48,487 nt of DNA from an uncultured Spirochaetota bacterium. GTDB taxonomy: Bacteria; Spirochaetota; Spirochaetia; Treponematales; Rectinemataceae. The notes beneath the pieces were generated by a model. The model was not told where the DNA came from, searched no databases, and saw only the letters and a list, made by a program, of their open reading frames with translations. Position numbers and translations under genes: made by a program. Every line of letters begins with the position of its first letter. The first letter of the stretch is position 1. The stretch covers positions 1 to 48,487 of the forward strand of contig CAIJMU010000176.1 in assembly GCA_903821875.1 (NCBI GenBank), given 5' to 3'. Shown piece after piece: positions 1,982 to 44,495 of this stretch.

Positions 1982-3028
1982 ATGACGAAAGTGTTGCCTC
2001 GTGAAGACGACGGAGACGGCAAATGCTTCGAGGACCTTGAGATCCCTCCAGATCTCGACCTCGGCCGCCAGAAGGATATGTACCTGAAGATGTGCCTCAT
2101 CCGTGAGTTCGACACCAAGGTCAAGGAACTCTGGCTGGACAACAAGATCTATGGGCTGGCGCATTCCTATGTCGGAGCCGAGGCGATCGCGGTCGGAGCC
2201 TGTGCGGCGCTGCACCCTGACGACTACATCACAAGCACGCATCGCGGACATGGCCATACGATCGCCAAGGGTGCCGACATCAACAAGATGATGGCAGAGC
2301 TCTTCGGCAAGTACGAAGGATACAACCGAGGCAAGGGCGGATCCATGCATATCGCCGATGTCGAGCACGGCATGCTCGGTGCAACGGGCATCGTCGGCAG
2401 CGGAATGCCCATCGCCCTCGGTTCTGCCCTGTCTGCAAATGTCCTCGGCAATGGCAAGATCACCATCTGCTTCCACGGCGACGGAGGTACCAACCAGGGT
2501 GTCTGGCACGAGACGATCAACATGGCAGCCGCCTGGAACCTGCCTGTAGTCTTCGTAATTGAAAACAACCAGATGGCAATCGGCACCGAGCTCAGTTGCG
2601 TCTCCAAGGAAACCGACCTCTTCCGAAGGGCCCTCGGCTACGGCATCCCCGGTGTCCTGGTCGATGGATTCAACGTCTTCGAGGTTTACCTTGCCGTGAA
2701 GGAAGCGGTGGAGCGTGCCCGTGCAGGACAGGGACCAACCCTGATCGAAGCGCGATTTCTCCGCCTCCTCGGACACTTTGTCGCCGACGACCAGTGGTAC
2801 CGCGACCTGACTAAAGTCGAGCCCTATTGGGACTACGATCCGGTCAAGCGCATGCGCGAGTATTTCATCCTGAACAAGCTGCTCAAGGAGAAGGAAATCG
2901 TGGAGATCGAGGCGAAGGCGAAGGCCAGCGTCGAGAGGTCCGTCGTCTACGCCTCGACAGAGTGCAGCGAGCCTGGCATCGATACCTTGTATGAGGACAT
3001 TTACGCCCACGGTGAAGTGATTGTGTGA
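1982..3028 (+). CDS. Thiamine-diphosphate-dependent dehydrogenase E1 alpha subunit (acetoin/pyruvate type)
   Basis: A 348-residue E1 alpha subunit of a 2-oxoacid or acetoin dehydrogenase complex. The thiamine-diphosphate motif is complete: G-D-G at residues 166-168, ending in the paired Asn at 195-196. H-R-G-H-G-H-T-I-A-K-G at 87-97 and R-x-x-G-H-x-x-x-D-x-x-Y-R at 261-273 are the expected active-site loops of the family. With the beta subunit 13 bases downstream it should form an alpha2beta2 enzyme that decarboxylates or cleaves a keto substrate and passes the acyl group to the lipoyl E2. The split alpha/beta form and the sugar-gene context favour an acetoin-type or specialised complex over the housekeeping pyruvate dehydrogenase, but sequence alone does not settle the substrate. 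Confidence 0.92.
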   Translation: MTKVLPREDDGDGKCFEDLEIPPDLDLGRQKDMYLKMCLIREFDTKVKELWLDNKIYGLAHSYVGAEAIAVGACAALHPDDYITSTHRGHGHTIAKGADINKMMAELFGKYEGYNRGKGGSMHIADVEHGMLGATGIVGSGMPIALGSALSANVLGNGKITICFHGDGGTNQGVWHETINMAAAWNLPVVFVIENNQMAIGTELSCVSKETDLFRRALGYGIPGVLVDGFNVFEVYLAVKEAVERARAGQGPTLIEARFLRLLGHFVADDQWYRDLTKVEPYWDYDPVKRMREYFILNKLLKEKEIVEIEAKAKASVERSVVYASTECSEPGIDTLYEDIYAHGEVIV

Positions 3029-3041
3029 AAGGACATAAGAT

Positions 3042-4025
3042 ATGAGCATCAAGACCGTCAGGGAAGCCTTGAACGATGGCATGCGTGAAGAGATGAGGCG
3101 CGATCCCACCGTGATCCTCATGGGCTGCGATGTTGCCGTCAGGGGCAACCCCTTCGGCGTCACGAAGGGCCTCCTCCAGGAATTCGGCCCGAAGCGGGTC
3201 ATCGACACCCCCATATCCGAACCGGGCTTCACGGGGGCTGGAGTCGGCGCTGCGGCAACAGGACTCAGGCCGATCGTCGAAATCCTCTATTCTGACTGGA
3301 TCACCCTGGCCATGGACCAGATCGTGAACATGGCAGCCAAGATGCGCTACATGTTCGGCGGAAAGGTCAATGTACCCCTGGTCGTGAGGGCTCCCTTCGG
3401 CTCGGGTGGCGGCAACGCGGCCCAGCACTCCCAGTCCTTCGAGAACTGGTTCAACCATGTCCCTGGATTGAAGGTGGTAGCACCGATCAGTCCCTACGAT
3501 TGCAAGGGCATGTTGCTCACGGCGATAAGGGACGACAACCCGGTCATCTTCTTCGAGCACAAGCGTGCATACCAGATCAAGGGCGAGGTGCCCGACGAAG
3601 AGTACACAGTGCCCTTCGGCAAGGCGGCCATCCGCAAGGAAGGTTCGGACGTCACAATAGTTTCTTACTCCATGATGTCCATCAAGGCCTTGCAGGCAGC
3701 CGAGGAACTGGAAAAAGAGCAGGGAATCAAGTGCGAAGTGATCGACCTGCGGTCGCTCTTGCCCCTCGACTACGAGACCGTGATGGGCTCGCTCGCGAAG
3801 ACCAACCGTATCGTGGTCTGCCAGGAGGCGAACCTGCGTGGAGGGATGGCCGCAGATATCGTGGCCGAGATCATCGATCGGGGCTTCGATCTCCTCGATG
3901 CGCCTCCGGTCCGGGTGGCCGCGCTTAACGTACCAATGCCCTATAACATGGCCCTGGAAAACGAGGTCATACCAAGTGTCCAGAAAATCAAGGCCGCCGT
4001 CCTCAAAGCACTTGGCGATCGATAA
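3042..4025 (+). CDS. Thiamine-diphosphate-dependent dehydrogenase E1 beta subunit
   Basis: A 327-residue transketolase-like pyrimidine-binding subunit that pairs with the E1 alpha product. Recognisable segments are the D-V-A-V-R-G-N-P-F-G-V-T-K-G region near residue 30, the P-I-S-E-P-G-F segment with the conserved Glu near residue 58, the A-A-Q-H-S-Q-S segment near residue 126 with the conserved active-site His, and the C-terminal transketolase domain beginning around residue 190 with E-G-S-D-V-T-I-V-S-Y. Length is normal for the family (about 325). It lies 13 bases after E1 alpha and 12 before E2, so all three are almost certainly co-transcribed and translated in stoichiometric amounts. Confidence 0.92.
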   Translation: MSIKTVREALNDGMREEMRRDPTVILMGCDVAVRGNPFGVTKGLLQEFGPKRVIDTPISEPGFTGAGVGAAATGLRPIVEILYSDWITLAMDQIVNMAAKMRYMFGGKVNVPLVVRAPFGSGGGNAAQHSQSFENWFNHVPGLKVVAPISPYDCKGMLLTAIRDDNPVIFFEHKRAYQIKGEVPDEEYTVPFGKAAIRKEGSDVTIVSYSMMSIKALQAAEELEKEQGIKCEVIDLRSLLPLDYETVMGSLAKTNRIVVCQEANLRGGMAADIVAEIIDRGFDLLDAPPVRVAALNVPMPYNMALENEVIPSVQKIKAAVLKALGDR

Positions 4026-4037
4026 GGGTGGATTGAA

Positions 4038-5294
4038 ATGCCGAAAATGCTGAACATGCCCAAGCTCGGCGTGAACATGACCGAGGCCCTCATTGTCGAA
4101 TGGCTCGTCAAGGAAGGTGACTCGATCAAGGTAGGTGACCACATCCTCGACGCCGAGACCGACAAGGCCATTCAGGAGATCTGCTCCTCCATGTCAGGCG
4201 TAATTGCAAAGATTCTAGTGCCCGTCGGCGTAACCGCCCTGTGCCAGACTCCCATCGCCGTGCTGCTGGAGCCCGGGGAAAAGCCGGCAGAGGCAGCCTC
4301 GGACACACTGGCTGCGGTCAAGCCCGCCTCAAAGCCGGCAGCGAGCGAGCCAGGCGCCAGTGCAGCTGCGAAGAAAGATCGCCTGGACCTCGAAGAAGCC
4401 CCGACTCCCAGCATCCTCCAGAGAAAAAAAATCTCCCCCCTGGCCAAGGTGATCGCTGCCAGCCTCGGCGTGGATTGGAAAGCCCTTTCGCCTGCGAAGC
4501 CTGGTGACAGGATCGTCAAGGCGGATGTGCTTGCCTTTGCTGCAGCCAGTGGAGCCCGGGCTCCTGCCGATCATCCGCGCGTCCAGGTCCCTATCAAGCA
4601 TTCAGCCAGTCCCGTCCATGGTTCTGTCATTCCCTACGCCGGCATCAGGCGCGTGATCGGCGATCGCATGACCGAGAGCGCGCGCACGATACCGAGCGTC
4701 GCCCTGACCCTTCACGCGGAGGTGGAACGGCTGATCGCCTGGAGGGAGGATCTCAAGGACAAGGGCTTGGCTGCAAGTTTCAACGAGATGATGGCCATGA
4801 TCGTTGCCAAGGCGCTCAGGGAGCACCCGATCATGAATTCAACCTTGGTGGGCAACGAGATCCGGCTTCTAGGTGATATCAATATCGGGATCGCCGTCGA
4901 TACGGAACGGGGTCTCTTCGTGCCGGTGATCCGGAACACGGACACCAAGGGTCTCATGGAGATCGGTGAGGAACTGCGGAGAAAGGTCGAAGCGGCGAAG
5001 GCCGGAAGGGCAGGAACCGAGGACCTCTCGGGAGGAACCTTCACCATCACCAACCTCGGCATGCACGAAATCGAGAGTTTCGTTCCCATCATCAATTTTC
5101 CGGAATGCGCGATCCTGGGCATTGGAGCCATTCGCCGCGATCCGGTCGTCCGCGAAAACGACAGGATCGACGTAGTCTCGAGGATGCAGCTTACCTTGGT
5201 GTTCGACCACAGGATCGTCGACGGCGCGCCAGCCGCCAGGTTCCTCCAGAGGGTGAAGCGCCTGGTGGAACAGCCGATGGATATGCTCAACTAG
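4038..5294 (+). CDS. Dihydrolipoamide acyltransferase (E2) of the 2-oxoacid/acetoin dehydrogenase complex
   Basis: A 418-residue E2 with all three expected domains. The N-terminal lipoyl domain (about 1-80) carries the lipoylated Lys43 within E-T-D-K-A. An Ala/Pro-rich linker (about 81-130) leads to a peripheral-subunit-binding domain (about 133-168) beginning S-P-L-A. The C-terminal catalytic acyltransferase domain ends with the H-R-I-V-D-G motif at residues 391-396, giving the active-site His and Asp. There is one lipoyl domain, as in acetoin dehydrogenase E2 and many bacterial complexes. It receives the acyl group from E1 and transfers it to CoA; the matching E3 gene is at 6941. The acyl group is unknown. 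Confidence 0.92.
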   Translation: MPKMLNMPKLGVNMTEALIVEWLVKEGDSIKVGDHILDAETDKAIQEICSSMSGVIAKILVPVGVTALCQTPIAVLLEPGEKPAEAASDTLAAVKPASKPAASEPGASAAAKKDRLDLEEAPTPSILQRKKISPLAKVIAASLGVDWKALSPAKPGDRIVKADVLAFAAASGARAPADHPRVQVPIKHSASPVHGSVIPYAGIRRVIGDRMTESARTIPSVALTLHAEVERLIAWREDLKDKGLAASFNEMMAMIVAKALREHPIMNSTLVGNEIRLLGDINIGIAVDTERGLFVPVIRNTDTKGLMEIGEELRRKVEAAKAGRAGTEDLSGGTFTITNLGMHEIESFVPIINFPECAILGIGAIRRDPVVRENDRIDVVSRMQLTLVFDHRIVDGAPAARFLQRVKRLVEQPMDMLN

Positions 5295-5301
5295 AGGTAC
5301 C

Positions 5302-6045
5302 ATGTTGAAAGAAAAGGTAGCCATTGTAACCGGGGCAGGCCAGGGCCTGGGAAAGGCAATTGCGGAATCGCTCGCATCAAAAGGATGTTCCGTAGCAGTC
5401 GTCGACATCAAGGTCCCCGAGGCGCAGAGTGTCGCCGAAGGAATCATGCGCTCAGGCGGTAAAGCCATCGCAGTCGGGGCGGACGTATCGAAGGTCGATG
5501 AGATCAGGAGGATGGTGCGGGAGACAGTAGCTGCCTTTTGCGGCATCGACATCCTCGTCAATAACGCCGGCATCCTCCATCAGACAGCAATCGAGGACAT
5601 CACCGAGGAGGAATGGGACCGGATCATGGCCGTTAACCTCAAGAGTGTCTTCTTTTCGATGCAGCAGGTACTGCCGAGCATGAAGTCACGGGGATCGGGC
5701 AGGATCATCAGCATCTCCTCCCTCGCCGGCAGGATGGGAGGCTACGCCAATGGCGTGGCATATTCCGCCTCGAAGGCCGGGATCATCGGCCTGACCAGGG
5801 CGGTTGCACGAAGGCTCGCATCGTTCGCCATCACCGTGAACGCCATCGCCCCTGGTACCACAGAGACGGATATCATCAAGAATCTTTCGGTGGAGCAGAT
5901 TGACATGCTCAAGGAAGCGATACCGCTCAAGCGACTCGGCAGGCCGGACAACACCTCGGAGCTCGTCGCATTCCTCTGTACCGATGCCGCGGACTTCATC
6001 ACCGGGGCGGTAATAGACGTGAACGGCGGAATATACATGGCGTGA
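5302..6045 (+). CDS. Short-chain dehydrogenase/reductase (FabG-like SDR)
   Basis: A 247-residue classical SDR. The cofactor motif T-G-A-G-Q-G-L-G spans residues 10-17, N-N-A-G is at 87-90, and the catalytic Y-x-x-x-K is Tyr154/Lys158 with the catalytic Ser near 139-140. Asp36 at the end of the second beta strand suggests NAD rather than NADP preference. It begins seven bases after E2 and so belongs to the same transcript. SDRs of this type oxidise sugar or sugar-acid hydroxyls; some act as butanediol/acetoin reductases, which would also fit an acetoin-type complex. Substrate not assignable. Confidence 0.88.
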   Translation: MLKEKVAIVTGAGQGLGKAIAESLASKGCSVAVVDIKVPEAQSVAEGIMRSGGKAIAVGADVSKVDEIRRMVRETVAAFCGIDILVNNAGILHQTAIEDITEEEWDRIMAVNLKSVFFSMQQVLPSMKSRGSGRIISISSLAGRMGGYANGVAYSASKAGIIGLTRAVARRLASFAITVNAIAPGTTETDIIKNLSVEQIDMLKEAIPLKRLGRPDNTSELVAFLCTDAADFITGAVIDVNGGIYMA

Positions 6046-6099
6046 TCCCGCTCCCGTGAAAAGAGCAATTGGGAATATACGATGAAGGAGGCCAGTTAC

Positions 6100-6903
6100 A
6101 TGCGCGATGGAAGACTCAAGGGCCAGGTCGCATGGATAAGCGGTGGAACCAAGGGCATCGGCGAAGGCGCCGCCCGCCTTTTCGCCCGGGAAGGCGCCGC
6201 TGTTGCCATCATCGGGCGCGATGTCAAGGACGGAAAGCGGGTAGTCGACACAATCGCGGGCGAGGGCGGCAAAGCCCTGTTCATCCCCTGCGACGTGACG
6301 AAAGCCGACCAGGTCGAGACGTCCATCGAGCAAACGGTTGGCCATTTCGGTGGACTCCAGATCCTTGTCAACAACGCCGGCATTGTCGACGTGAGGGCCC
6401 TCCACGAATACAGCGAGGAGCAATTCACCCGTGTCATGGATGTGAATGTCAAATCCATGTTCCTGGCATTCAAGTACGCCTTTCCCCATCTCAAGGCCAA
6501 CGCGCAGAGCTATGTCGTCAATATTGGATCGATCAGCAGCTACGTCGGCCAGGACGGAACGCCTGTCTACACCTCATCGAAGGGAGCGGTGCTCCAGCTG
6601 TCGCGCTCCATCGGGCTCGACTACGCACGGTATGGTATTCGAAGCAATTGTGTGTGTCCGGGGATAACCGATACGCCGATGCTGCATGAGCACCTTGACA
6701 AGGCCCCCGATCCCGCGGCGCATCTCGCCGAGCGGCTCAGGCGGGTCCCGCTCGGGAGGATCCTGACTCCCGAAGATATCGCGAAGGCCATCCTCTATTT
6801 CTCCTGCGAAGATTCCGCCGGCATCACCGCGACCTCCCTCATCGTGGATGGCGGCTATCTCGCAGCTGCGGAATGGGATTGCGGAGCCTCCGACAGTACA
6901 TGA
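6100..6903 (+). CDS. Short-chain dehydrogenase/reductase (second SDR of the operon)
   Basis: A 267-residue classical SDR with G-G-T-K-G-I-G at residues 15-21, N-N-A-G at 91-94 and Tyr157/Lys161 as the catalytic pair; the C-terminus has the usual I-V-D-G-G-Y. Start ATG 6100 is preferred over the in-frame ATG at 6082 because a perfect AAGGAGG ribosome site (6085-6091) sits eight bases before 6100 and would be inside the gene otherwise. Sequence around both Rossmann motifs differs clearly from the first SDR, so the two probably act on different steps or substrates. Two SDRs between E2 and E3 of a dehydrogenase complex is an unusual gene order. Confidence 0.88.
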   Translation: MRDGRLKGQVAWISGGTKGIGEGAARLFAREGAAVAIIGRDVKDGKRVVDTIAGEGGKALFIPCDVTKADQVETSIEQTVGHFGGLQILVNNAGIVDVRALHEYSEEQFTRVMDVNVKSMFLAFKYAFPHLKANAQSYVVNIGSISSYVGQDGTPVYTSSKGAVLQLSRSIGLDYARYGIRSNCVCPGITDTPMLHEHLDKAPDPAAHLAERLRRVPLGRILTPEDIAKAILYFSCEDSAGITATSLIVDGGYLAAAEWDCGASDST

Positions 6904-6940
6904 CAGGCACATCGGAAAAGAGGGCGACGATGGAGAGTAC

Positions 6941-8353
6941 ATGGAAAAGCGCTTCGATCTGACCATTGTAGGTGGTGGACCCGGCGGCTACGTCGCGGCG
7001 ATCCGGGCTTCGCAGCTTGGATTGAAAGTCGCGGTGGTCGAGGAAGGGGAGATGGGCGGGACCTGTCTGAACAGGGGATGCATCCCTACAAAGGCCTTGC
7101 TCCAATCTGCGGAACTGTACCACCTCATGGGCAGGAGCACCGAGTTCGGAATTACAGCCTCGGTTGAAGGCTTCAACTACGCGAAACTCTCCGAGCGCAA
7201 GGCCTCCATTGTAAAGCGACTCAGGCTCGGGGTCGAATCACTCGTTCGGAAGGCGGGTGGTACCATGATTTCCGGCAGGGCCGGCCTCCTGGACAATCAT
7301 ACCCTCACGATATCGGGAGCCGAATCGGGAATCATAAGGACCAGTACCATTATTATCGCTACCGGTTCCCGTCCCTCGCGGCCGCCGATTGCAGGTATCG
7401 ACGGAGCCAGGGTTCTCGACAGCAACCAGGTCCTCGAGTTGCATGACTGTCCCAGGAGCGTCGTGATCATCGGAGGCGGTGTGATAGGGGTCGAGTTCGC
7501 GACCCTGTTCAATCTGCTGGGGAAAAAAGTAGCCATAGTCGAAATGACAGGTTCACTGGTCCCCGGCCTCGACCTCGAGATAGCCGGACTCTTACGGAAA
7601 TCGCTAGAAGCGCGGGGAATCGAGGTTTTCACCGACTCGCGTGTAAGCGAGATGCTCTCGGGACCCTCCCAGGAATCACCGCTAACCTGCCGCTTCGAGG
7701 TGGGTGGCGAGAAATTCCAGGTGGATGGCGATTTTGCCATTGTCGCGACCGGTCGCAGGCCCAACATCGAGGGTCTCGGCCTGGAAGCGCTGGGAATCGC
7801 GCTCGAGAAAGGGCACATCAAGGTGAACGGGGGCATGGAGACCTCCATTCCTGGCATCTATGCGATCGGGGATGTCGTAGGCACCTGGCAACTCGCACAC
7901 GCGGCCTCGGCTCAAGGGATGGTTGCGGCTGCCAACGCAGCCGGCGGACACGCGATCATGGATAATTCGGTCATACCTGCCTGCATCTATTCCAGCCCGG
8001 AGATCGCGACAGTCGGCTTGACCGAGAAAGCAGCCCGTGACCGGGGCCTCGATGTGAGGATCGGACGCTTCCCGGTCGCTGCAAACGGAAAGTCCATGAT
8101 CCTCGGGGAAAAAGAAGGCATTGCAAAGATGGTTACCGATCGTTCCACGGGGGAAATCATTGGCGCACATATCATGGCCCCGAGGGCAACCGAAATGATC
8201 GGCGAAATCTGTGTTGCGATGAGACTCGAGGCAACGAGCGCAGAAATCGCGGATACGGTGCATCCTCATCCCACGGTCAGCGAGATGCTGATGGAGGCAG
8301 CCATGGACGCGGAGGGCCGCGGGCTGCATCAACCAGGTACTGGACGGAAATGA
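6941..8353 (+). CDS. lpdA: Dihydrolipoamide dehydrogenase (E3)
   Basis: A 470-residue FAD-dependent disulfide oxidoreductase. The N-terminal FAD motif G-G-G-P-G-G is at residues 11-16, the redox-active disulfide C-x-x-x-x-C is Cys42/Cys47 within G-G-T-C-L-N-R-G-C, a second Rossmann motif G-G-G-V-I-G lies in the NAD domain, and the C-terminal dimerisation domain has the active-site H-P-H-P-T-x-S-E. Length matches E3 proteins (460-480). ATG 6941 gives the classical N-terminus; upstream in-frame starts overlap the SDR gene. It reoxidises the dihydrolipoyl E2, completing the complex encoded from 1982. The next gene begins directly after this stop. Confidence 0.93.
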   Translation: MEKRFDLTIVGGGPGGYVAAIRASQLGLKVAVVEEGEMGGTCLNRGCIPTKALLQSAELYHLMGRSTEFGITASVEGFNYAKLSERKASIVKRLRLGVESLVRKAGGTMISGRAGLLDNHTLTISGAESGIIRTSTIIIATGSRPSRPPIAGIDGARVLDSNQVLELHDCPRSVVIIGGGVIGVEFATLFNLLGKKVAIVEMTGSLVPGLDLEIAGLLRKSLEARGIEVFTDSRVSEMLSGPSQESPLTCRFEVGGEKFQVDGDFAIVATGRRPNIEGLGLEALGIALEKGHIKVNGGMETSIPGIYAIGDVVGTWQLAHAASAQGMVAAANAAGGHAIMDNSVIPACIYSSPEIATVGLTEKAARDRGLDVRIGRFPVAANGKSMILGEKEGIAKMVTDRSTGEIIGAHIMAPRATEMIGEICVAMRLEATSAEIADTVHPHPTVSEMLMEAAMDAEGRGLHQPGTGRK

Positions 8354-9373
8354 ATGGGCGGTGAAAAACCCAGGCTCCGAACGCCCACGCTCAAGGATAT
8401 TGCGAGGGAATTGGGCATTTCGGCAATGGCCGTGTCGAAAGCCCTCAACGGCAAGGGCGGCGTCGGAGCCGAAACCTTGCAACGCGTCAAGGAAACAGCA
8501 GAGCGCCTGAACTACCAGCCGAATGCGGTCGCGAAGAGCCTCCGGCTCAGCAGCACCAAGACGATCGGGGTTGTCGTCTCGGACAGTTCCCTCTCCTTTT
8601 TTGCCAAGGTGGTAAAGGGCATCGAGGAAACCGCTTCACGCAATGGATACAGCATCATCCTCTGCAACACGGATCAGGATTGCAGCAAGGAAAAGCTGGC
8701 CATCCAGGTCCTCGTCAACAAGAGAATCGATGGGCTGATCCTGGCGGCATCGATGCTGACCCGGAAAGAAGACGTAGCGTATCTCCGGAGCTTTGGCATC
8801 CCCTTCGTATTCCTGATCCGGCGGAGCGAGGCAGAGGAGGTCGATTACGTCATCAATGACAACATAGGCGGCGCCTGCCAGATGGTGGACTACCTGGTTG
8901 GAAGCGGTAGCCGAAAGGTGCATTTCATCAACCTCAATGAGGAAATTCCCAGCAGGAAGGACAGGTTGTCGGGATACAGGAAAGCCTTGGAAGAAAATGG
9001 CATCTCCTACGAGCCGAGCCTGGTTCGCAGCGTGAAACCGACGATCGAGGATGGCCATTCTGCAATGGTAGAGCTCCTCGACGGGAAGGAGGAAATCCAG
9101 GCTGTCTTTTGCGGCTGCGACGTGATCGGGATCGGGGTCATGGAGGCCATCCTCGAGCGCGGATTGAGGATCCCCCAGGACATCAGGGTCGCAGCCTATG
9201 ACGACATCGATTTCGCTGCCTATCTCCGTGTGCCCCTCACGACGGTACGGCAACCGAAATTCACCATCGGGTGCAAGGGGACGGAGCTCCTTATCGAGAA
9301 GATCCGGGTGGGGGGCCAGGAGGCGAAGCATCTGGTCTTGCAGCCGGAGCTGGTTATCAGGATGTCGACGTGA
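8354..9373 (+). CDS. LacI-family transcriptional regulator
   Basis: A 339-residue LacI/GalR-type repressor. An N-terminal helix-turn-helix (about 11-35, beginning T-L-K-D-I-A-R-E-L-G) is followed by the hinge helix N-Y-Q-P-N-A-V-A-K-S-L and a periplasmic-binding-protein-like effector domain. The ATG abuts the TGA of the E3 gene, so it is translated as part of that operon. It probably senses a sugar or sugar phosphate and controls the operon that contains it. A CG-centred palindrome in the downstream intergenic region (9444-9455) is a candidate operator. The effector is unknown. Confidence 0.9.
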   Translation: MGGEKPRLRTPTLKDIARELGISAMAVSKALNGKGGVGAETLQRVKETAERLNYQPNAVAKSLRLSSTKTIGVVVSDSSLSFFAKVVKGIEETASRNGYSIILCNTDQDCSKEKLAIQVLVNKRIDGLILAASMLTRKEDVAYLRSFGIPFVFLIRRSEAEEVDYVINDNIGGACQMVDYLVGSGSRKVHFINLNEEIPSRKDRLSGYRKALEENGISYEPSLVRSVKPTIEDGHSAMVELLDGKEEIQAVFCGCDVIGIGVMEAILERGLRIPQDIRVAAYDDIDFAAYLRVPLTTVRQPKFTIGCKGTELLIEKIRVGGQEAKHLVLQPELVIRMST

Positions 9374-9472: not shown

Positions 9473-9793
9473 ATGAAGCGATATACGTTTCAGATGAGGA
9501 TCCATCCCGAAATGAAGGCCGAGTACAAAAAGGCGCATGACGAGATCTGGCCGGACATGGCTGCTGCCATCAGGGACGCAGGCATCCGGAATTATTCGAT
9601 CAGCTTCCGGGCCGATGGAACGCTGTTCGCCTATCTCGAGTGCGACGACCCCTCGGCAGCCTTTGGAAAACTCGGGAAGACCGAGGTGAACGCCCGCTGG
9701 CAGAAGGCCATGGACCGCTTTTTCATGAAGGAGGATCCGGCGACCGTCGGTCCCACGATCATAGAACTCGAAGAGGTTTTCCACCTCGATTGA
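9473..9793 (+). CDS. RhaM-type L-rhamnose mutarotase family protein (copy 1)
   Basis: A 106-residue protein of the small dimeric RhaM family, which interconverts anomers of 6-deoxy sugars. The family pattern is plain: H22-D-E-I-W-P, N-Y-S near residue 40 with Tyr41, and a Trp at 76 where E. coli RhaM has its Trp pair, although here the pair is W-Q. The C-terminus E-E-V-F-H-L is conserved. The start has a strong AAAGGAGGAAG site. It directly precedes the UroD-corrinoid fusion, and another RhaM copy precedes two UroD-like genes at 44455. The Trp-Gln change makes the natural sugar uncertain; it may not be rhamnose itself. Confidence 0.85.
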   Translation: MKRYTFQMRIHPEMKAEYKKAHDEIWPDMAAAIRDAGIRNYSISFRADGTLFAYLECDDPSAAFGKLGKTEVNARWQKAMDRFFMKEDPATVGPTIIELEEVFHLD

Positions 9794-9816
9794 TACCTAT
9801 GCACAAGGAGAACAGC

Positions 9817-11673
9817 ATGCAGATCGAACCCTTTGTCGGCGAACCCGACATCCAGCGTCTTCTCGCAACATTCAAGCGGAAGAAAGTCGACCGCGTTCCC
9901 AACTTCGAGGTTCTTTTCGAGGACCAGCATGTGGAAAAGCTCCTGGGCCGGCCCGCGGGCAACTCATTGTCCTACGGCGGAGATCCAGCCAAGGGCGTTT
10001 CGGAGGGAGAGGGCGCCCGCCCCATGATGGCGCAGGACTACATCGACCTCTGCAAGATCGTCGGCCAGGACTCCATGATCGTGGAAGCGATCTGGACTCC
10101 CTTCAAGCACCGGAATCCCGACGGCAGCGTTGGCGGAATGATCGCCGACCGCAGCATCAAGAACAGGTCGGACTTCGAGAAAAAGGTAGTGCTTCCTGAC
10201 GATGCAGACATCGAGGCCAAGATGGTCTTCATCCGGGAGTACCGCCAGGCCCTGGACCGCTCGGGCACGAAGATCGGATTCTGCATGCTCTTCGGGGCCT
10301 ACTTCCAGACCCTCTATGAGTTCGTGATCGGCCTCGAGGATACGATGAGGATGGTCTATGAAGACCGCGAATTCATCGACCATCTCCTGGACCTCAGCGC
10401 GGACTGGTGCGCCAAGCTCTGCGCAGCCGCTGTGAAGAACGGTGTGGACTTCGTCTGGACCGCCGATGACGTGGCCTTCAAGACCGGCTTGTTCCTGCCG
10501 CCGGCCATCATGCGGGAGCTCTGGTTGCCCAAGCTCAAGCGCATCCACGCGCCTGCCCTGGCTGCCGGCAAGCCGATCATGTTCCACTCCGACGGAAACG
10601 TCGACGAGCTTGTGCCCATGCTCATCGAGGCGGGCGTCGATTGTCTCAACCCCCTCGATCCCTACGGCGTCGACTATCGCCAGATCAAGAAGCGCTTTGG
10701 CGACCGCCTCTGCCTGTCAGGGAACATCGACATCGAGTTTCCCCTCGCCCATGGAACGCCAGCAGAAGTCGAAGCCGACGTGAAGGCCCATATGGACGCG
10801 CTCAAGCCCGGTGGCGGCTATGTCTGCGGCTCCAGCCACAGCATCGTGAACTACATACCTCACGATAATGTCATAACTATGATCAACGCGATCCACAAAT
10901 ACGGAGTCTATGACGAGAAGAGCTGGACTGGCTCCGACCTAAAGAAGCCATCGGAAACCCTCGCCGCAAAGCCCGAGCGCCTGAGCCTGGCCCAGATGGA
11001 AGCGAAGGAACTCCAGAACATCGCCTCGGCAGGGCTCAAGCCGCTTTTCTCTGCTGTCTACAAAGGCGCATCCAAGGAGATCGGGAAGGCAGTAGAGGCA
11101 GCCCTCGCTTCAGGGATCGATCCGATGACCATCATCGGCGGGGCCTTGATGCCTGCCATCAAGGCGGTCGGCAGCAACTTCTCCAGCGGCCAGATGTTCC
11201 TTCCCCAGCTGATCATGGCTTCCAGCGCAATGCAGGAAGCGATGAAAGTCCTCACTCCCCTCTTAAAAGGGCGACCCGAGGCGGCGAGCAAGGGCAAGAT
11301 CCTACTTGGTACGATCAAGGGAGACCTCCACGACATCGGCAAGAACATCCTGCGTGCCTTGCTCGAAGGCAACGGCTTCGAGGTGGTCGACATCGGAGTC
11401 GATGTCGCTCCCCAGAAATTCGTTGACGCAATAAAGCTGCACAAGCCGGACGTCGTGGGGTATTCCGGTCTCCTCACAACTACACTGAGCGGCATGCCCG
11501 AGCAGATCGATGCTCTGAAGAAAGCCGGTCTCAGGGACAGCGTCATCACCATCGTCGGAGGAGCCCCTGTCACCCTTGATTTCGCCAAGCGCAACGGTAT
11601 CGACCTCTTTGCGATGGACGCGAACGAGGGAGTACTTGCCATCGAGAAAGCCCTGGCTGCCCGGAAAAAATGA
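9817..11673 (+). CDS. Fusion of UroD-type methyltransferase and corrinoid (B12)-binding protein
   Basis: A 618-residue two-part protein. Residues 1 to about 365 are a UroD-fold domain like the MtaA/MtbA methylcobamide methyltransferases. Residues about 388-618 are a complete methionine-synthase-type corrinoid module: a helical cap (about 388-485) and a Rossmann B12 domain with the cobalt-ligand motif D503-L-H505-D-I-G508, an S-G-L-L-T-T-T segment at 550-556 and G-G at 581-582. In the UroD part the zinc motif H-x-C-G is H-S-D-G (257-260), but Cys337 in G-Y-V-C-G-S-S-H could be a ligand. ATG 9817 follows AAGGAG (9805-9810); an ATG at 9799 is less well placed. In known systems methyltransferase and corrinoid protein are separate chains. 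The likely role is methyl transfer from or to a bound corrinoid, linked to sugar catabolism by its neighbours. This is not haem biosynthesis. Confidence 0.88.
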   Translation: MQIEPFVGEPDIQRLLATFKRKKVDRVPNFEVLFEDQHVEKLLGRPAGNSLSYGGDPAKGVSEGEGARPMMAQDYIDLCKIVGQDSMIVEAIWTPFKHRNPDGSVGGMIADRSIKNRSDFEKKVVLPDDADIEAKMVFIREYRQALDRSGTKIGFCMLFGAYFQTLYEFVIGLEDTMRMVYEDREFIDHLLDLSADWCAKLCAAAVKNGVDFVWTADDVAFKTGLFLPPAIMRELWLPKLKRIHAPALAAGKPIMFHSDGNVDELVPMLIEAGVDCLNPLDPYGVDYRQIKKRFGDRLCLSGNIDIEFPLAHGTPAEVEADVKAHMDALKPGGGYVCGSSHSIVNYIPHDNVITMINAIHKYGVYDEKSWTGSDLKKPSETLAAKPERLSLAQMEAKELQNIASAGLKPLFSAVYKGASKEIGKAVEAALASGIDPMTIIGGALMPAIKAVGSNFSSGQMFLPQLIMASSAMQEAMKVLTPLLKGRPEAASKGKILLGTIKGDLHDIGKNILRALLEGNGFEVVDIGVDVAPQKFVDAIKLHKPDVVGYSGLLTTTLSGMPEQIDALKKAGLRDSVITIVGGAPVTLDFAKRNGIDLFAMDANEGVLAIEKALAARKK

Positions 11674-12505: not shown

Positions 12506-13741
12506 TCAGCGATGGCTGTCTATCAATGCGTTGAGACTGCGACGGTAATAGCTGAACTCATCCCAGTGTATCTCGGGAGGGATGAGGTGGTCGCCGAAGG
12601 GTATGTAGCCACCAGTGGCGAGAACGGACTTCACCGGTTCGAGTATTTCATCGATCCGCCTGTAACCCTTCGCGATCTCGCTCTTGGGGATTCCACCCAT
12701 GAGCTGAAGCTTCGGATACATCTTCCGGACCTTGACTATGTCCACCCCGCAGCTTGCTTCCATCGGATAGAGGCCGGTAATGCCCCCCTCGAGGAAAAGC
12801 GGGATGAGGTTGGTGCATTCCCCGTCGGTATCGACAAATATGGTCTTCACTCCATGTGCCTTGAGGAAGCCTGTCATCCGCTTGTAGTAGGGCAACATGA
12901 ATTCCCGCATGGTGTCCGGTGCGACCATGGAACCGATGCCGGCGGAGATGTCCTCCCAGAAGACGAACATGTCTACGTCGGTCTGGGCGAAGACCTCTTC
13001 GTAGACGGAGATCCAGATCTCGGTGAAGGTCTTCTGGATGTCATGGATAAGCTCTGGCTGGTCGTAGTAGTTGAAAAAAAGATGTTCATAACCCATAAGA
13101 TGGGCGAGAGTGCCGAAGTAGCCGTGCGGGTATCCCCCGAGAACCAGGGGATAGTCACGGCTCTTATAGTTCTTGACCAATGTAGACCAGTTGGCGGGAA
13201 ACCTGTCCATCACGTGCTTCAGGGAAAGCCGCTCGTCCTTGAGCTTGTTCCAGCTAGGCCAGTCCTTGACGGGATTGTCCTCCGCCATGGGAATGACTCC
13301 TGTCTGCTTGGCAAAGCGGCGCTTGACGCCGTCTATGTCGATGTAGAGCATCGTGGTCTCTGTGTCCTCGAGGATCTGGACATCGAACTTCGGATAGAAC
13401 AGGAGATCCACATTAACGAGGATCTGCCCCTTGTCCATGTCACAGGCGGTTCGCACGTCGTCGTCAAGGGCGAAGCCCTGGGTAGGCCAGTACAGACCAC
13501 CTCCTAGGACCGCCATGCCGTCGGAGATCTCCCCCCGCTTCCGAGAATTCCAGCAGGGAGCGTAGAGGGACGCGGTTGCTGTCGTGGTCTTCGACAGCGG
13601 TCTCGGCGTCCTGTGCCGGGGCAGGCCTTCCTTGTACCAATTGGCATAATTTGCGCCCCAGTAGCCGAACTCCCATTTGGGAGGGCTCACCGCAGTGTTG
13701 AAATTCTCCATCACCTCGCGGAAACGATCCCTGACGTTCAT
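12506..13741 (-). CDS. UroD-like family protein (uroporphyrinogen decarboxylase fold), divergent
   Basis: A 411-residue protein of the UroD superfamily, longer than true HemE (about 350). Sequence features of the C-terminal half fit the group (T-I-F-V-D-T-D-G-E followed by a long helix and a G-G-Y segment). The zinc motif H-x-C-G of the methyltransferase branch is replaced by V-D-T-D-G and no Cys occurs in the late G-G-Y-I-P-F-G segment, so a zinc-thiolate methyltransferase mechanism is unlikely for this copy. It sits between the permease and the SGNH hydrolase of a sugar-importer operon, which argues for a sugar-linked function. The ATG has an AGGAG site eight bases upstream. Function unknown. 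Confidence 0.8.
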   Translation of the reverse strand: MNVRDRFREVMENFNTAVSPPKWEFGYWGANYANWYKEGLPRHRTPRPLSKTTTATASLYAPCWNSRKRGEISDGMAVLGGGLYWPTQGFALDDDVRTACDMDKGQILVNVDLLFYPKFDVQILEDTETTMLYIDIDGVKRRFAKQTGVIPMAEDNPVKDWPSWNKLKDERLSLKHVMDRFPANWSTLVKNYKSRDYPLVLGGYPHGYFGTLAHLMGYEHLFFNYYDQPELIHDIQKTFTEIWISVYEEVFAQTDVDMFVFWEDISAGIGSMVAPDTMREFMLPYYKRMTGFLKAHGVKTIFVDTDGECTNLIPLFLEGGITGLYPMEASCGVDIVKVRKMYPKLQLMGGIPKSEIAKGYRRIDEILEPVKSVLATGGYIPFGDHLIPPEIHWDEFSYYRRSLNALIDSHR

Positions 13742-13751: not shown

Positions 13752-14738
13752 CTATTGCTTTTTCAGCGCTCCGCTTCTGACGACATCGATCATGACCGCG
13801 ACAAGAAGCACACCACCTGAAACCACCATCTGGAAATACGCGTTGACGCTCAGCAGGGTGAGCCCATTGTTGATCGTCTGTAGTATCAGGATGCCCAGGA
13901 TGGTTCCGGAGAGTTTACCCTTGCCGCCGCTCAGGCTTATTCCGCCGAGGATGACGGCGGAGATCGTATTCATCTCGGTGCCCGCCCCGGACTGCGGAAG
14001 GGCCGCTCCAACCTGGCAGGCTACCAGGAATCCTGCCATCCCGGCGGTGAGGCCGCTGATCACGAAGGAGACAAACTTGACCCTGCTCGCATTGATGCCC
14101 GAAAGGTAGCTGGCGCGCTCATTGCCGCCAACCATGTACACTTTCCGGCCGAAGGAGGTGAAGTTCAGGAGGTAGTAGATGACGATGAGGACCACGAGGG
14201 CTATCAAGGTAACGTAGGGGATGACCCCGAACAGGCGACCCCTCCCGAGCGCTATGAGCACGGGATCGGTGACCATGACGGTAGCGTCCTTGATGAGCCA
14301 GGCCGTACCACGGAAGATCTGCATTGTGCCCAGGGTCGTAATGATGGCCGCGATCTTGAAGATCGTCACAAGGGTCGCGTTGATGACTCCCATCAGGAGT
14401 CCGAGAAGTACTACCAGGATCAGGACCTGCCACCAGGGAGCCCCTGAGATGCTGAACAGGACGCACAGGAGGCCCGTCACCGCCCCGACCGCGTTCTGGG
14501 AGATGTCCATTCCACCAAGGATCATCGAAACCGTAAGGCCCGAAGCCCTGATCGCCAGGATCGAGGCGAACATGAGGACGTTCATGATGTTCTGCACAGT
14601 GAAGAAATAGGGAGAAAGCGAAGACCACACAATACAGAGGATCAGCAGCGCTATCGCCAGGCTCAGCGTGTTGCCGAGGTCTGAGACCCTTCTCCAGAAT
14701 TTCGGCTTCTCGTTCATCGTCAGGTTCTTGCTAGCCAT
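13752..14738 (-). CDS. Sugar ABC transporter permease (RbsC-like)
   Basis: A 328-residue membrane protein of the ribose/xylose-type (BPD_transp_2) permease family with about eight to ten hydrophobic segments. The conserved G-G-M-D-I-S-Q-N-A-V segment, variant of the usual G-G-I-D-L-S, lies in the middle third, and the late signature A-V-I-L-G-G-I-S-L-S-G-G-K-G is present. The start is ATG 14738: it overlaps the stop of the upstream ATPase by eight bases (translational coupling) and is preceded by AAAGGAAA. In-frame starts further upstream would lie deep inside the ATPase gene. It works as the membrane channel with the ATPase and the binding protein of the same operon. Confidence 0.9.
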   Translation of the reverse strand: MASKNLTMNEKPKFWRRVSDLGNTLSLAIALLILCIVWSSLSPYFFTVQNIMNVLMFASILAIRASGLTVSMILGGMDISQNAVGAVTGLLCVLFSISGAPWWQVLILVVLLGLLMGVINATLVTIFKIAAIITTLGTMQIFRGTAWLIKDATVMVTDPVLIALGRGRLFGVIPYVTLIALVVLIVIYYLLNFTSFGRKVYMVGGNERASYLSGINASRVKFVSFVISGLTAGMAGFLVACQVGAALPQSGAGTEMNTISAVILGGISLSGGKGKLSGTILGILILQTINNGLTLLSVNAYFQMVVSGGVLLVAVMIDVVRSGALKKQ

Positions 14739-16272
14739 TCTCGTTTCCTTTGACAGCCATGTGTAGTATCGTCTTCTGGTCATAGTCATTCCGCATGAAT
14801 TCCCCCGCGATCGTGCCGTTGGCGAATACAAGCATCCTGTCCGTTATTCCGATGACCTCAAGAAGCTCGGCGGTGACCATGATGATCGAGATTCCCCTGC
14901 TGCACAGCTCTTCCATGATCTTGTAGATCTCGACCTTGGCTCCGACATCGACGCCCCGCGTCGGATCGTTCATGATGAGGACTTTGGGCTCGGTGAGGAT
15001 CCATTTGGCAACGACGACTTTCTGCTGGTTTCCACCGCTCAGGGACTCGACGATTGCGTTGCGGGATGGCGTCCTGATCTGCATCTTGTCTATCCAGGTA
15101 TCGCAGTATTCCTTGGCCTTGGCATTGTCGATCATGAAGCCCTTTCCAAGTTCATCGAGCTTGGTGATCGTCAGGTTGTCCTTGAGGGAGTGTATCAGAA
15201 TGAGGCCCTCGGCCTTGCGATCGCTGGGCACATAGGCTAACCCGCGCTTTTTCGCTTCTATCGGGGAACCGATCGACGCTTCCTTGCCGTCTATCAAGAC
15301 CTTCCCACTGGAGATCGCCTTGATCCCCAACAAGCCTTCTACCGTCTCGACGCAACCTGAGCCAACGAGGCCGTAGAGACCGAAGATCTCCCCCTTGCGA
15401 AGGGAAAACGAAATGTCCTTTGCGCAGCCGCAGCTCAGGTGTTCTATCCGGAGCACCTCGTCTCCGATGGGTACTTTTTCCTTTGGATACATTTCAGTGA
15501 TGGCCCTGCCGACCATCATCTCCACGAGTTGCCCCGAACTCGTGTCCTTGATGTCGACGACCCCGACCCGTTTGCCGTCACGCATCACCATCACCCGGTC
15601 GGCGAGGCGGAAAACCTCTTCCAGCTTGTGGCTGATATAGATGATGGACACTCCGCGGTTCTTGAGGTTTTCGATATGGCCGAAAAGCCGCTGGGTCTCC
15701 ACCTCGTTCAAACTGGAGGTCGGCTCGTCCATTATCAGGACCTTCACGTCGCGGGAGACAGCCCGCAGTATTTCCAGTATCTGCTTCTCCGCCACGCTCA
15801 GTTCCTTGACGAGGGTGAAGGGGTTGTAGTCAAGATTGAAGAGGCGCAACAGGTCCATGGAGGCCTGCTTCATTCCCTGATAGTCCACGCGCCTGAATGG
15901 ACCCTTCACCGGGACTCTTCCGAGGAAGAGGTTCTCCGCGATCGACATTTCGTTCAGGTAATTGAGTTCCTGGTAGATGATACCCAATCCGTAGTCCATC
16001 CGCGCCTTTGGCGTGGTTTCAGGCGGAATCACCTTCCCATCGAGCAGGATTTCCCCGGAGTCCATGAGGAGGGCGCCGGAAAGGATCTTCATAAGAGTGG
16101 ATTTCCCGGCTCCATTCTCCCCGATCACCGCGAGGACTTCGCCTTTGTGGATCTCCAGATCCACCCCGTCGAGCGCCAGGACGCCCGGGAATCGTTTCAC
16201 CGCGTTCCTGACCTGAAGATTATACTCTCCGCCCACTCCCTCCCTGCCAGTCGCCACGAATGCCCCCCGCAT
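14731..16272 (-). CDS. Sugar ABC transporter ATP-binding protein, two nucleotide-binding domains (RbsA-like)
   Basis: A 513-residue tandem ATPase. The first domain has Walker A G-E-N-G-A-G-K-S-T at 51-59, a normal L-I-M-D-E-P-T Walker B and a signature region beginning L-S-V-A-E-K-Q. The second has the usual degenerate Walker A, the signature L-S-G-G-N-Q-Q-K and a Walker B that reads L-I-M-N-D-P-T, where the other two importers here have L-I-L-D-E-P-T. Thus the second site lacks the normal Asp-Glu pair. ATG 16272 is chosen; an in-frame TTG lies two codons upstream and the ribosome site is weak. A terminator-like hairpin separates it from the binding-protein gene. Confidence 0.9.
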   Translation of the reverse strand: MRGAFVATGREGVGGEYNLQVRNAVKRFPGVLALDGVDLEIHKGEVLAVIGENGAGKSTLMKILSGALLMDSGEILLDGKVIPPETTPKARMDYGLGIIYQELNYLNEMSIAENLFLGRVPVKGPFRRVDYQGMKQASMDLLRLFNLDYNPFTLVKELSVAEKQILEILRAVSRDVKVLIMDEPTSSLNEVETQRLFGHIENLKNRGVSIIYISHKLEEVFRLADRVMVMRDGKRVGVVDIKDTSSGQLVEMMVGRAITEMYPKEKVPIGDEVLRIEHLSCGCAKDISFSLRKGEIFGLYGLVGSGCVETVEGLLGIKAISSGKVLIDGKEASIGSPIEAKKRGLAYVPSDRKAEGLILIHSLKDNLTITKLDELGKGFMIDNAKAKEYCDTWIDKMQIRTPSRNAIVESLSGGNQQKVVVAKWILTEPKVLIMNDPTRGVDVGAKVEIYKIMEELCSRGISIIMVTAELLEVIGITDRMLVFANGTIAGEFMRNDYDQKTILHMAVKGNENG

Positions 16273-16290
16273 AGTCAAGACTTGTCGAAA

Positions 16291-16340
16291 ATAAAACGAC
16301 CCCCCGGCCGCGGGCCAAGAATGACCGACGACCGGAGGGT
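16291..16340 (-). terminator. Attenuator/terminator hairpin between binding-protein and ATPase genes
   Basis: On the minus strand ACCCTCCGG (16340-16332) pairs with CCGGGGGGT (16307-16299), nine positions with one G-U pair, followed by CGTTTTATTTT. This is a good rho-independent shape placed directly after the stop of the substrate-binding gene. It would let most transcripts end there, giving excess binding protein over membrane components, while readthrough supplies the ATPase and permease. Confidence 0.7.
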
Positions 16341-16351
16341 TCCCTTTGCTG

Positions 16352-17332
16352 TTACTTGTTCTCGTCCTTGATCTTCTGGATTTCGGCGCGAGTCAGGAAC
16401 TCGTGCTTCATGGTCTGGATCTTGGCGGGCTTCTTGCCATTGATGATGTCGATGGCGAGTGGAATGATGTAGTCACCGTACTGCGTGGGGTAATAGGCCG
16501 TACCACCGAGCCAGCAGTTGTCACCCTGGGCAAAGGCGGCCAGGGTCTGCATGCCGTTGTTGTTGGTCGCGAGAAGGACATCCTTGTCCCTGTTTGCAGC
16601 CTGTACTGCGGAGAAGACTCCCTGGCCGGTCTCGGTGTTGACCGTGCCGACCGCGATGCGGTGGAGCGTCGGATGGGCTGTGAGCCAGTCCGTCATCTTC
16701 TGGTTTGCGGCCATCGTCGTGTCGGATCCGCCACCGCCCATGTCGATGTACTGGACGTTCTTCGCGTCGAGGGTGATGCCGCCAGCGGCCTTGATGCCGT
16801 CATACATGCCGGACAGTCTCTTCTTTACAAGGTCCCCGTTCTCGGAGTTATAGAACAGAAGGAGATAGTCGACCTTGCTGGCCCATTTAGCCTTGATGGC
16901 CTTGGCCAGGCCCCTTCCGGCAACTTCGCCGGCCATCGGATTGTTGGCCCCGAAGAACCAGGCCTGATCGCCCTTGGCGCCCGTATACATGACGTCGATG
17001 CCGATAACCTTGACGCCCTTGGCACCGCAGTAGTCTACAAGACTTCCGCCGACCTGTGCGTTGACATTGAAATCGACGATGATCTGGGCACCCTGGAGGA
17101 GCATGTTGTCTACGTTTGGAAGGATCTTCTCGACGTCGAAGTTCGACTCTGCCACGATGAGCTTGACCCCGGCCTTGTCAGCGGCCCGCTCCATGCTTTC
17201 CCCGACCTGGCGGAGGAAGTCGACAGTGGTCGAACCGTTGTTGAAACCGATGATGATCTTGTCGTTGGGAATGGCCAAAACGCCACCCACCCCAATCAAC
17301 CCGATCAAAGCAATTGCCAATAGCTTCTTCAC
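16352..17332 (-). CDS. Sugar ABC transporter substrate-binding protein (RbsB-like, periplasmic)
   Basis: A 326-residue type I periplasmic binding protein. It starts at GTG 17332 with an AGGAGG site seven bases upstream and a typical Sec signal peptide (K-K, then a hydrophobic run to about residue 20, cleavage near V-L-A). No lipobox Cys is present, so it should be soluble in the periplasm. The mature part has the Peripla_BP_4 pattern: I-I-I-G-F-N-N-G at the first strand, D-F-N near residue 88, and a C-terminal domain with L-L-A-T-N-N-N-G. It is the first gene of the operon and is followed by a terminator-like hairpin. Ligand is probably a mono- or disaccharide. Confidence 0.9.
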   Translation of the reverse strand: MKKLLAIALIGLIGVGGVLAIPNDKIIIGFNNGSTTVDFLRQVGESMERAADKAGVKLIVAESNFDVEKILPNVDNMLLQGAQIIVDFNVNAQVGGSLVDYCGAKGVKVIGIDVMYTGAKGDQAWFFGANNPMAGEVAGRGLAKAIKAKWASKVDYLLLFYNSENGDLVKKRLSGMYDGIKAAGGITLDAKNVQYIDMGGGGSDTTMAANQKMTDWLTAHPTLHRIAVGTVNTETGQGVFSAVQAANRDKDVLLATNNNGMQTLAAFAQGDNCWLGGTAYYPTQYGDYIIPLAIDIINGKKPAKIQTMKHEFLTRAEIQKIKDENK

Positions 17333-19977: not shown

Positions 19978-21108
19978 ATGACCCACAGAGAGCGTGTTAT
20001 TCGCTGCTGCGAACGGAGCGGCTACGACCGCATCCCGATAAAGCACGAGGGGACCCCCGAGGTGAACGGGGAGCTCAAGAAGCATTTCGGCCTGAAGAAC
20101 GACGAGCAGCTCATGGCAGTGCTCGGAGACGACTTCCGCTACGTCGAGCCCCGCTATGTCGGGCCGGAGCTCCGGACCTTCCCGGACGGGAGCGTCGAGG
20201 GCTACTTCGGCGAACGTTATATCTATGTCCAGTTCGACGGGGGAAAATACCTCGAGTCGGTCTACAAGCCCTTCGCCGGAATAGAGGACCTGAAGGACCT
20301 CGACCGTTCCCACTATCCAAGCGCCGACTGGTTCGATTATTCGAGCCTGGCTACAGAGGCAGCCACGCTGCGCAGGCAGGGTTTCGCCATCTGCATCGGC
20401 TCGGCAGGTGACATGGACTTCATCAACTCCATAGCCCGGGCCCGTGGCTTCGAGCAGGTCCTGATGGATCTCATCGACGACAGCGAAGTCTATCTCGACA
20501 TCATGCAGGCCCGCTTCCGCTTCTATTTCGAGATGCACGAGCGGATCCTGAAGGAGTGCGGGGGCATGGTCGACTTCGCCCATGTGGGCGACGACCTTGG
20601 GAACCAGCTTGGTCCGATGATCTCCTTGGAGATATTCGACCGACACCTCGCCCCGAAGTACGCTGAGTATTTCCGCATGGTCCATTCCTATGGGGCCCGC
20701 ACCATGATGCACATGTGCGGCACTGTATGGCCCTTTCTCGACCGCCTGATCGGACTTGGCCTGGATGTCTACGATGTCGTCCAGCCCACGACCCCCGAAA
20801 ACGACATAGGCGCCCTTCGCGACCGCTTCGGCTCGAGGTTGCTCTTCCAGGGCAGCATGGACGTCCAGCGGGAACTGGCTTTCGGAACCCCTGCCGAGGT
20901 CGAGCATGAAGTCGAGCGGCGCCTGGCGCTCTTCCCGAAAGGTGGACTCTTCCTTGGGCCTTCACATGCGGTTCAGGCGCGATCGCCGGTCGAGAATGTT
21001 GTTGCGATGTACAGGAAGGCAGGAACCCTCATGGATCCCATCGAGCCCTGGGTCTTCGAGGTGGCAGGACCGGAGTCGACGGCGATCAGCATGTCGAAGC
21101 TGTTTTAG
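19978..21108 (+). CDS. UroD-like methyltransferase family protein (H-x-C-G present)
   Basis: A 376-residue UroD-superfamily protein. It begins T-H-R-E-R-V-I-R, has a G-D-D-L-G segment near residue 205 and the H245-M-C247-G zinc-site motif; the later G-L-F-L-G-P-S-H segment has no Cys but keeps the His. It is distinct in sequence from the preceding UroD-like protein, so the pair is not a recent duplication. GAGGAGA lies just before the start. It follows the LacI regulator and precedes the sugar importer at 21295, so probably serves the same substrate. Function inferred only to fold level. Confidence 0.82.
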   Translation: MTHRERVIRCCERSGYDRIPIKHEGTPEVNGELKKHFGLKNDEQLMAVLGDDFRYVEPRYVGPELRTFPDGSVEGYFGERYIYVQFDGGKYLESVYKPFAGIEDLKDLDRSHYPSADWFDYSSLATEAATLRRQGFAICIGSAGDMDFINSIARARGFEQVLMDLIDDSEVYLDIMQARFRFYFEMHERILKECGGMVDFAHVGDDLGNQLGPMISLEIFDRHLAPKYAEYFRMVHSYGARTMMHMCGTVWPFLDRLIGLGLDVYDVVQPTTPENDIGALRDRFGSRLLFQGSMDVQRELAFGTPAEVEHEVERRLALFPKGGLFLGPSHAVQARSPVENVVAMYRKAGTLMDPIEPWVFEVAGPESTAISMSKLF

Positions 21109-37745: not shown

Positions 37746-37896
37746 CAAACTTCCTCCTCTGCGAATATATCCCTCCGGTCACCGCCCCTAGGGGGCGCTC
37801 CGGTAATGGAACCAAACATTAGCACCTTCAACGACCTCGCGGTCAACTAAGGTTGGATGATGCGGGCCACTCAAGCACCCCATCACCGAATGACGT
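37746..37896 (-). promoter_or_regulatory. Leader region with hairpin upstream of the binding-protein gene
   Basis: The 151-base gap between permease and binding-protein genes holds CGCCCC (37783-37788)-TAG-GGGGCG (37792-37797), a very tight GC hairpin, flanked by CCGG on both sides (37775-37778 and 37799-37802) that can extend it after internal loops. It could end or pause transcription from the upstream genes, or protect a processed binding-protein mRNA. No convincing promoter boxes were found. Confidence 0.4.
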
Positions 37897-44124: not shown

Positions 44125-44131
44125 AACTCCC

Positions 44132-44455: not shown

Positions 44456-44495
44456 GTTGGGATCCTCCTTCTACAGCAGTCGATAGTGGTCTTTG

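Follow-up and report, generated by a model that had tools for sequence, protein, structure and literature searches.

A URO-D and corrinoid-protein fusion in a deoxysugar gene cluster of an uncultured spirochaete, a candidate for oxygen-independent sugar demethylation

What does a URO-D barrel joined to a complete corrinoid protein do at the end of a run of sugar genes? The question is raised by the window analysed here, the whole stretch of 48,487 nucleotides from an uncultured Spirochaetota bacterium of the Rectinemataceae, in which a single 618-residue chain carries both domains directly behind a sugar mutarotase.

The fusion protein and its gene cluster

The span that first drew attention (9473–11673) contains two genes on the + strand, one of 106 aa (9473–9793) and one of 618 aa (9817–11673). 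The latter, the fusion, starts with the ATG at 9817, preceded by AAGGAG at 9805–9810, and ends a same-strand run beginning at 205, in which the intergenic gaps are at most 99 bp. The genes of the run and the neighbouring features are as follows:

205–1041, + strand: MBL-fold hydrolase, first gene of the run
1025–1957, + strand: 2-hydroxy-3-oxopropionate reductase
1982–3028, + strand: E1 alpha
3042–4025, + strand: E1 beta
4038–5294, + strand: E2
5302–6045 and 6082–6903, + strand: two SDRs
6848–8353, + strand: dihydrolipoyl dehydrogenase
8354–9373, + strand: regulator of the LacI family, by similarity
9473–9793, + strand: RhaM-type sugar mutarotase, 106 aa (Pfam rhaM, E 5e-28), 23 bp upstream of the fusion
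9817–11673, + strand: 618-aa fusion of a URO-D methyltransferase and a corrinoid protein (open reading frame, Pfam, NCBIfam, model and fold search)
12506–13741, − strand: partner URO-D protein B
13752–17332, − strand: CUT2 sugar ABC transporter (permease 13752–14831, ATPase 14731–16278, binding protein 16352–17332)
19978–21108, + strand: URO-D protein C, in the adjacent rhamnose cluster

The mutarotase scores 73.9 bits against NCBIfam YiiL_rotase, below the cut-off of 99.6, and its position directly upstream of the fusion bears out the placement of the enzyme in a deoxysugar-type cluster, as the preliminary description had proposed. Following the fusion on the − strand are a GDSL-type hydrolase (identified by eye), URO-D protein B and the CUT2 transporter, and beyond the transporter another cluster, of the rhamnose type, includes RhaA and RhaM. 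Farther along, at 36546–47262, a second pair of URO-D proteins and a CUT2 transporter adjoin a GH29 alpha-L-fucosidase. Genes for E1 alpha, E1 beta and E2 of the 2-oxoacid or acetoin dehydrogenase type adjoin the fusion in two distant spirochaetes (window 1982–5294 and L112:8563–11614); such a complex may cleave an oxidised product of the deoxysugar. Neither the promoter scans nor the inverted repeats near the LacI gene yielded anything usable.

Within the fusion, the URO-D domain is followed by a short linker and a complete corrinoid module, with the following parts, all on the + strand:

9817–10911: URO-D domain, residues 1–365, the putative substrate methyltransferase half (Pfam, fold match, end of the stand-alone relatives near residue 365)
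10585–10596: H257-S-D-G, at the position of the H-x-C zinc ligands of MtaA and CmuA (alignments)
10837–10839: H341, at the position of the second zinc Cys of MtaA and CmuA (alignments)
11041–11253: B12-binding_2 helical cap, residues 409–479 (Pfam PF02607, E 4e-19, above cut-off)
11293–11607: B12-binding Rossmann domain, residues 493–597 (Pfam PF02310, E 6e-27, above cut-off; match to 1y80 with Z 21.0 over residues 489–613)
11323–11340: D-L-H-D-I-G cobalt-ligand motif, residues 503–508, with D503 and H505 (motif reading)

The Pfam URO-D match covers residues 114–362 (E 2e-28, above the Pfam cut-off), and the corrinoid module also possesses S550-G-L and GG581. A single-sequence model was unusable (pLDDT 42.6), and an AlphaFold model built on a 12-sequence alignment was used instead (mean pLDDT 81.5, pTM 0.76), its Rossmann part being less confident. 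Residues 10–370 of this model match URO-D enzymes and MtaA with Z of 28–31 (MtaA 4ay7, Z 28.1), and residues 402–613 match corrinoid proteins with Z of 21.9. In its D-x-H-x-x-G, S-x-L and GG motifs and its helical cap, the module fits the methyltransferase-cognate corrinoid proteins of TIGR02370 (E 1.5e-55; 187.6 bits, below the cut-off of 215.3). The score against TIGR01463, the MtaA/CmuA subfamily, is 70.2 bits, below the curated cut-off of 235.4. No HemE family appeared among the NCBIfam matches at E 1e-10 and no haem genes were present in the annotated window; hence, a role in haem synthesis was dropped for lack of both the HemE sequence type and a haem-gene context. The reported 618-residue chain with URO-D and a complete B12 module containing D-L-H-D-I-G is thus upheld by Pfam, the motifs, the fold model and its recurrence in other genomes.

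Known systems with a similar fold or architecture

The single-chain combination of URO-D and corrinoid domains is already known from CmuA of Methylorubrum extorquens, a characterised two-domain methyltransferase/corrinoid-binding protein of 67 kDa (PMC3621897; also PMC13222342), and the general statement that methyltransferase and corrinoid protein occupy separate chains has to be amended. CmuA, which acts on chloromethane in strain CM4, shares with the fusion the N-terminal URO-D and C-terminal corrinoid arrangement and nearly the same length (617 versus 618 aa), and the two align co-linearly over 165–616 with 24% identity. Significant differences exist at both metal sites: the zinc ligands H248-T-C250 and C330 of CmuA are replaced by H257-S-D259 and H341 in the fusion, and the cobalt-ligand site reads NTQDIG, with Gln, in CmuA but DLHDIG, with His, in the fusion. 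The contexts also differ, CmuA lying with chloromethane and folate genes and the fusion among deoxysugar genes. MtgB, named in the preliminary description as a comparable system, belongs to the MttB family and not to URO-D.

The fold of the URO-D half is shared with the methyl-corrinoid:CoM methyltransferases MtaA and MtbA. However, MtaA carries H-I-C and PGC at its zinc site, ligands that the fusion does not possess, and the fusion has no CoM or methyl-sulfur context, unlike the MtaA/MtbA types and the type 1 mlp clusters, each of which contains several URO-D proteins (PMC10418091). In the MtvB, OdmB, VdmB, MtoB and CdmB systems, a URO-D barrel hands the methyl group to a corrinoid protein, as is predicted for the fusion, but in those systems the carrier is encoded as a chain of its own. 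The substrates of the URO-D O-demethylase and haloalkane systems are methoxy-aromatics or haloalkanes (PMC13222342), and the helpers of the five systems named, RACo and a Pterin_bind enzyme, both occur in the host genome as well, outside the fusion cluster.

An engineered protein from Desulfitobacterium hafniense, with the methyltransferase at the N-terminus, the corrinoid protein at the C-terminus and a short linker as in the window protein, O-demethylates guaiacol-type compounds in vitro (PMC9930637). This construct is artificial, whereas the window protein is natural; since the former is active, such an architecture can work as an O-demethylase. A task like the one proposed for the fusion is performed by the unrelated P450 demethylases of 6-O-methyl-galactose in marine bacteria, which depend on oxygen and release formaldehyde (PMC8360166).

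Recurrence, neighbouring genes and helpers

The same full-length architecture was found in two other Spirochaetota genomes, with 78% identity in L021 and 59.6% over 617 aa in L112; these two further fusions rule out chance or chimeric assembly as the origin of the chain. In L021, a Spirochaetaceae MAG from a fen, the fusion also stands behind RhaM (75% identical to that of the window), with a rhamnulokinase-type kinase downstream. In the third and more distant genome, L112, the neighbours are a LacI regulator, another URO-D protein, a CUT2 transporter and the set of E1 alpha, E1 beta and E2; the RhaM orthologue (70%) lies at a separate locus, L138, where it adjoins a 65% identical orthologue of URO-D protein B. 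The three fusions are monophyletic in the URO-D tree (support 0.81; 1.0 for the pair) and in the corrinoid-domain tree (0.996), which suggests that they go back to a single fusion event, and in both trees they stand apart from CmuA.

The closest relatives of the URO-D half share 54–58% identity over 360 residues and stop before the corrinoid domain. These stand-alone proteins occur in Acidobacteria, Pirellulaceae, one actinobacterial MAG and another spirochaete. The clade is rare: few members were added by 345 genomes of Spirochaetota, another 391 of Planctomycetota and another 255 from the Solibacter-like order, with matches at E 1e-60 in four further genomes among the Spirochaetota and in none among the Planctomycetota, so that the neighbour statistics comprise 11 loci.

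Around the clade members, genes for deoxysugars recur. L024 and L025 each have a GH106 rhamnosidase gene immediately before the clade member, L026 has two GH78 genes upstream and a GH29 fucosidase downstream, L029/L113 a rhamnulokinase and an SftI-like isomerase, and L022 an AraA/SftI-like isomerase; CUT2 transporters are also among the neighbours. RhaM adjoins the fusion in the window and L021, and a 41% identical relative in L115. Rhamnose genes (RhaM, RhaA, RhaB, GH78, GH106) were present at 6 of the 11 clade loci versus 0 of 42 control loci (1 of 42 when a weak kinase match is included; P 2e-5 to 1e-4), the controls being a convenience set, not a random one, of other loci of the clade genomes and the window's own, with the window longer than most loci. 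Neighbours of this kind, and not methanol, methylamine or haem genes, were obtained when the surroundings and domain order were tabulated as the preliminary description had suggested; the relatives in other phyla strengthen its deoxysugar idea as a hypothesis. The isomerases adjoining clade members at L022:1857–3320 and L113:3127–4548 are distant relatives of the sulfoquinovose isomerase SftI.

The clade is also repeatedly accompanied by partner URO-D proteins. In L024, of the Pirellulaceae, a protein 64.6% identical to URO-D protein C directly precedes a stand-alone relative of the fusion's N-terminal domain. This gene (L024:9989–11122), common to a Pirellulaceae rhamnosidase locus and the rhamnose cluster of the window, has probably been transferred.

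The host genome, 97% complete and 4.7 Mb in size, contains 38 URO-D matches, most of them with H-x-C-G or H-x-D-G and a later His. Of 31 clusters of these genes, 11 lie no more than 5 kb from a CUT2 permease, compared with 2.4 expected (P 1e-5). The reductive activator that the preliminary description had advised looking for is represented by two RACo activases, both away from the fusion cluster, and a folate-type acceptor methyltransferase (Pterin_bind) likewise accompanies RACo in the genome (C88, C56), unlinked to the fusion. The fusion is hence not the self-contained enzyme first described; an activase and an acceptor methyltransferase are needed in trans. Selenocysteine in RACo, suggested by in-frame TGA codons reported in both genes, was rejected, as only the terminal stop was found on reading. 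On C88 (L052:7471–12809), a corrinoid protein, a CdmB-like URO-D protein, RACo, a protein without a Pfam match and a Pterin_bind enzyme form a run that is apparently a separate, complete demethylase operon; its URO-D protein, and not the fusion, gives a clear match to CdmB (E 3e-33). Two of the three MTHFR-family matches in the genome lie close to a Pterin_bind match (C2:16911–22505), perhaps constituting a methyl-folate branch that takes up methyl groups. No acetyl-CoA synthase (AcsB/CdhC) was found in the 97%-complete genome, and acetogenesis as the methyl sink was therefore dropped.

Of 10 genomes with the URO-D clade, 8 contain RACo, versus 1 of 14 controls. In some clade genomes it stands with Wood–Ljungdahl genes (read by eye), so RACo alone is no proof of a demethylase, and two Solibacter-like genomes with stand-alone relatives (G379, G382) gave no RACo match. 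In G378, of the Pirellulaceae, one RACo lies beside a corrinoid protein and a Pterin_bind enzyme (L128), an arrangement that would let stand-alone clade members act in trans. G377 and G381 have additional RACo loci rich in URO-D genes (L133–L135), as read by eye only.

The proposed reaction and its alternatives

The reading that best accommodates these data, with a probability of roughly one half, is that the fusion is a substrate:corrinoid methyltransferase joined to its own carrier, which demethylates an O-methyl-6-deoxyhexose and passes the methyl group to tetrahydrofolate. Corrinoid methyl transfer is a well-supported prediction. The direction of transfer, the methylated deoxysugar as the donor and folate as the acceptor are presumed: the loss of the zinc ligands of MtaA and CmuA favours a role on the donor side, though not decisively, and the genes neighbouring the fusion and its relatives, from which alone the substrate is deduced, indicate a small molecule that goes with rhamnose or fucose. 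In such a reaction, the CUT2 transporter would import a 6-deoxyhexose bearing a methyl group, for instance 3-O-methyl-L-rhamnose or a methyl fucose, and RhaM would set its anomer. Co(I) in the C-terminal domain would attack the O-methyl carbon in the barrel, giving the free sugar and methyl-Co(III); the folate-type methyltransferase encoded elsewhere would move the methyl group to tetrahydrofolate, and RACo would re-reduce accidental Co(II). The demethylated sugar would enter the rhamnose or fucose route, and methyl-folate would proceed to oxidation or methionine.

Several observations count against this reaction. All cluster neighbours would equally serve plain rhamnose or fucose, and none proves a methylated sugar. 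An alkoxide is a poor leaving group and the zinc ligands are absent, H257, D259 and H341 being candidates only for activation. The conserved complex of the 2-oxoacid dehydrogenase type is not accounted for by demethylation, and RACo and the acceptor methyltransferase are unlinked to the fusion.

More tentatively, at somewhat less than even odds, the fusion may belong to a so far undescribed, oxygen-independent corrinoid system for the O-demethylation of methylated sugars, in which a rare clade of URO-D enzymes, whose members are separate chains in Planctomycetes and Acidobacteria but joined to the carrier in Spirochaetes, uses Co(I) to strip the O-methyl group from 6-deoxyhexoses and feeds it into the folate pool. 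The cell walls of plants and algae contain O-methyl sugars, and methylation is said to shield polysaccharides from microbial attack. To judge from titles in the reference list of PMC12590268, mosses, ferns and further lower land plants contain 3-O-methyl-rhamnose. This last sugar would suit the relative from the fen, and the host lineage itself is known from peat. In the open-licence literature consulted, the enzymatic sugar demethylation described is that of the oxygen-dependent P450 (PMC8360166), and no anaerobic enzyme or corrinoid system for this purpose was found. If the proposal is true, the fusion may demethylate methylated plant sugars in the absence of oxygen; furthermore, a gene family, partners and substrates are named for testing, and a natural scaffold would be available for cobalamin biocatalysis, in which the methyltransferase–corrinoid fusions used to date are man-made designs (PMC9930637).

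URO-D proteins may also act on the acceptor side. Those of the MtaA type are second methyltransferases, and the URO-D half could similarly carry the methyl group from the fused corrinoid to the acceptor, with the partners at 12506–13741 and 19978–21108 as the substrate-specific demethylases. The recurrence of these partners with the clade (64.6% in L024, 65% beside RhaM in L138) and the several URO-D proteins of type 1 mlp clusters (PMC10418091) agree with such a division of labour, but it is unlikely given H-S-D and H in place of the H-x-C and Cys ligands of MtaA and CmuA, and a Pterin_bind candidate for the acceptor step is already encoded in the genome.

Rather less likely is a corrinoid methyltransferase that takes the methyl group from some other compound, be it a methoxylated aromatic aglycone released by rhamnosidases, a cyclitol carrying methyl groups or a further small methylated molecule. 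The GH78 and GH106 rhamnosidases that adjoin relatives of the fusion also act on rhamnosylated aromatics. Methoxy-aromatics are demethylated by URO-D relatives (PMC13222342); however, RhaM, the sugar isomerases, rhamnulokinase and the CUT2 transporters point to the sugar itself, and aromatic chemistry is better fitted by the separate CdmB-like operon on C88.

It is improbable that no methyl transfer takes place, with the URO-D half catalysing another reaction of deoxysugars and the corrinoid half being regulatory or otherwise recruited. Stand-alone relatives are known from presumably aerobic bacteria, two of whose genomes gave no RACo match, and we know of no tested function for most URO-D proteins in sugar clusters. 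Nevertheless, the corrinoid module retains all cobalamin motifs, is closest to the methyltransferase-cognate corrinoid proteins and has been kept in three genomes.

A CmuA-type chloromethane:corrinoid methyltransferase, notwithstanding the common domain order and length, was rejected as highly improbable on the 24% identity and separate branches in both domain trees, the missing zinc ligands and the His in place of Gln at the cobalt site, and the absence of chloromethane genes near the fusion. Another natural single chain of URO-D and corrinoid domains, apart from the window fusion in the trees, was observed in the gut bacterium Vescimonas fastidiosa (L102:9611–11350), where it adjoins an amidohydrolase, with glycine-cleavage genes nearby.
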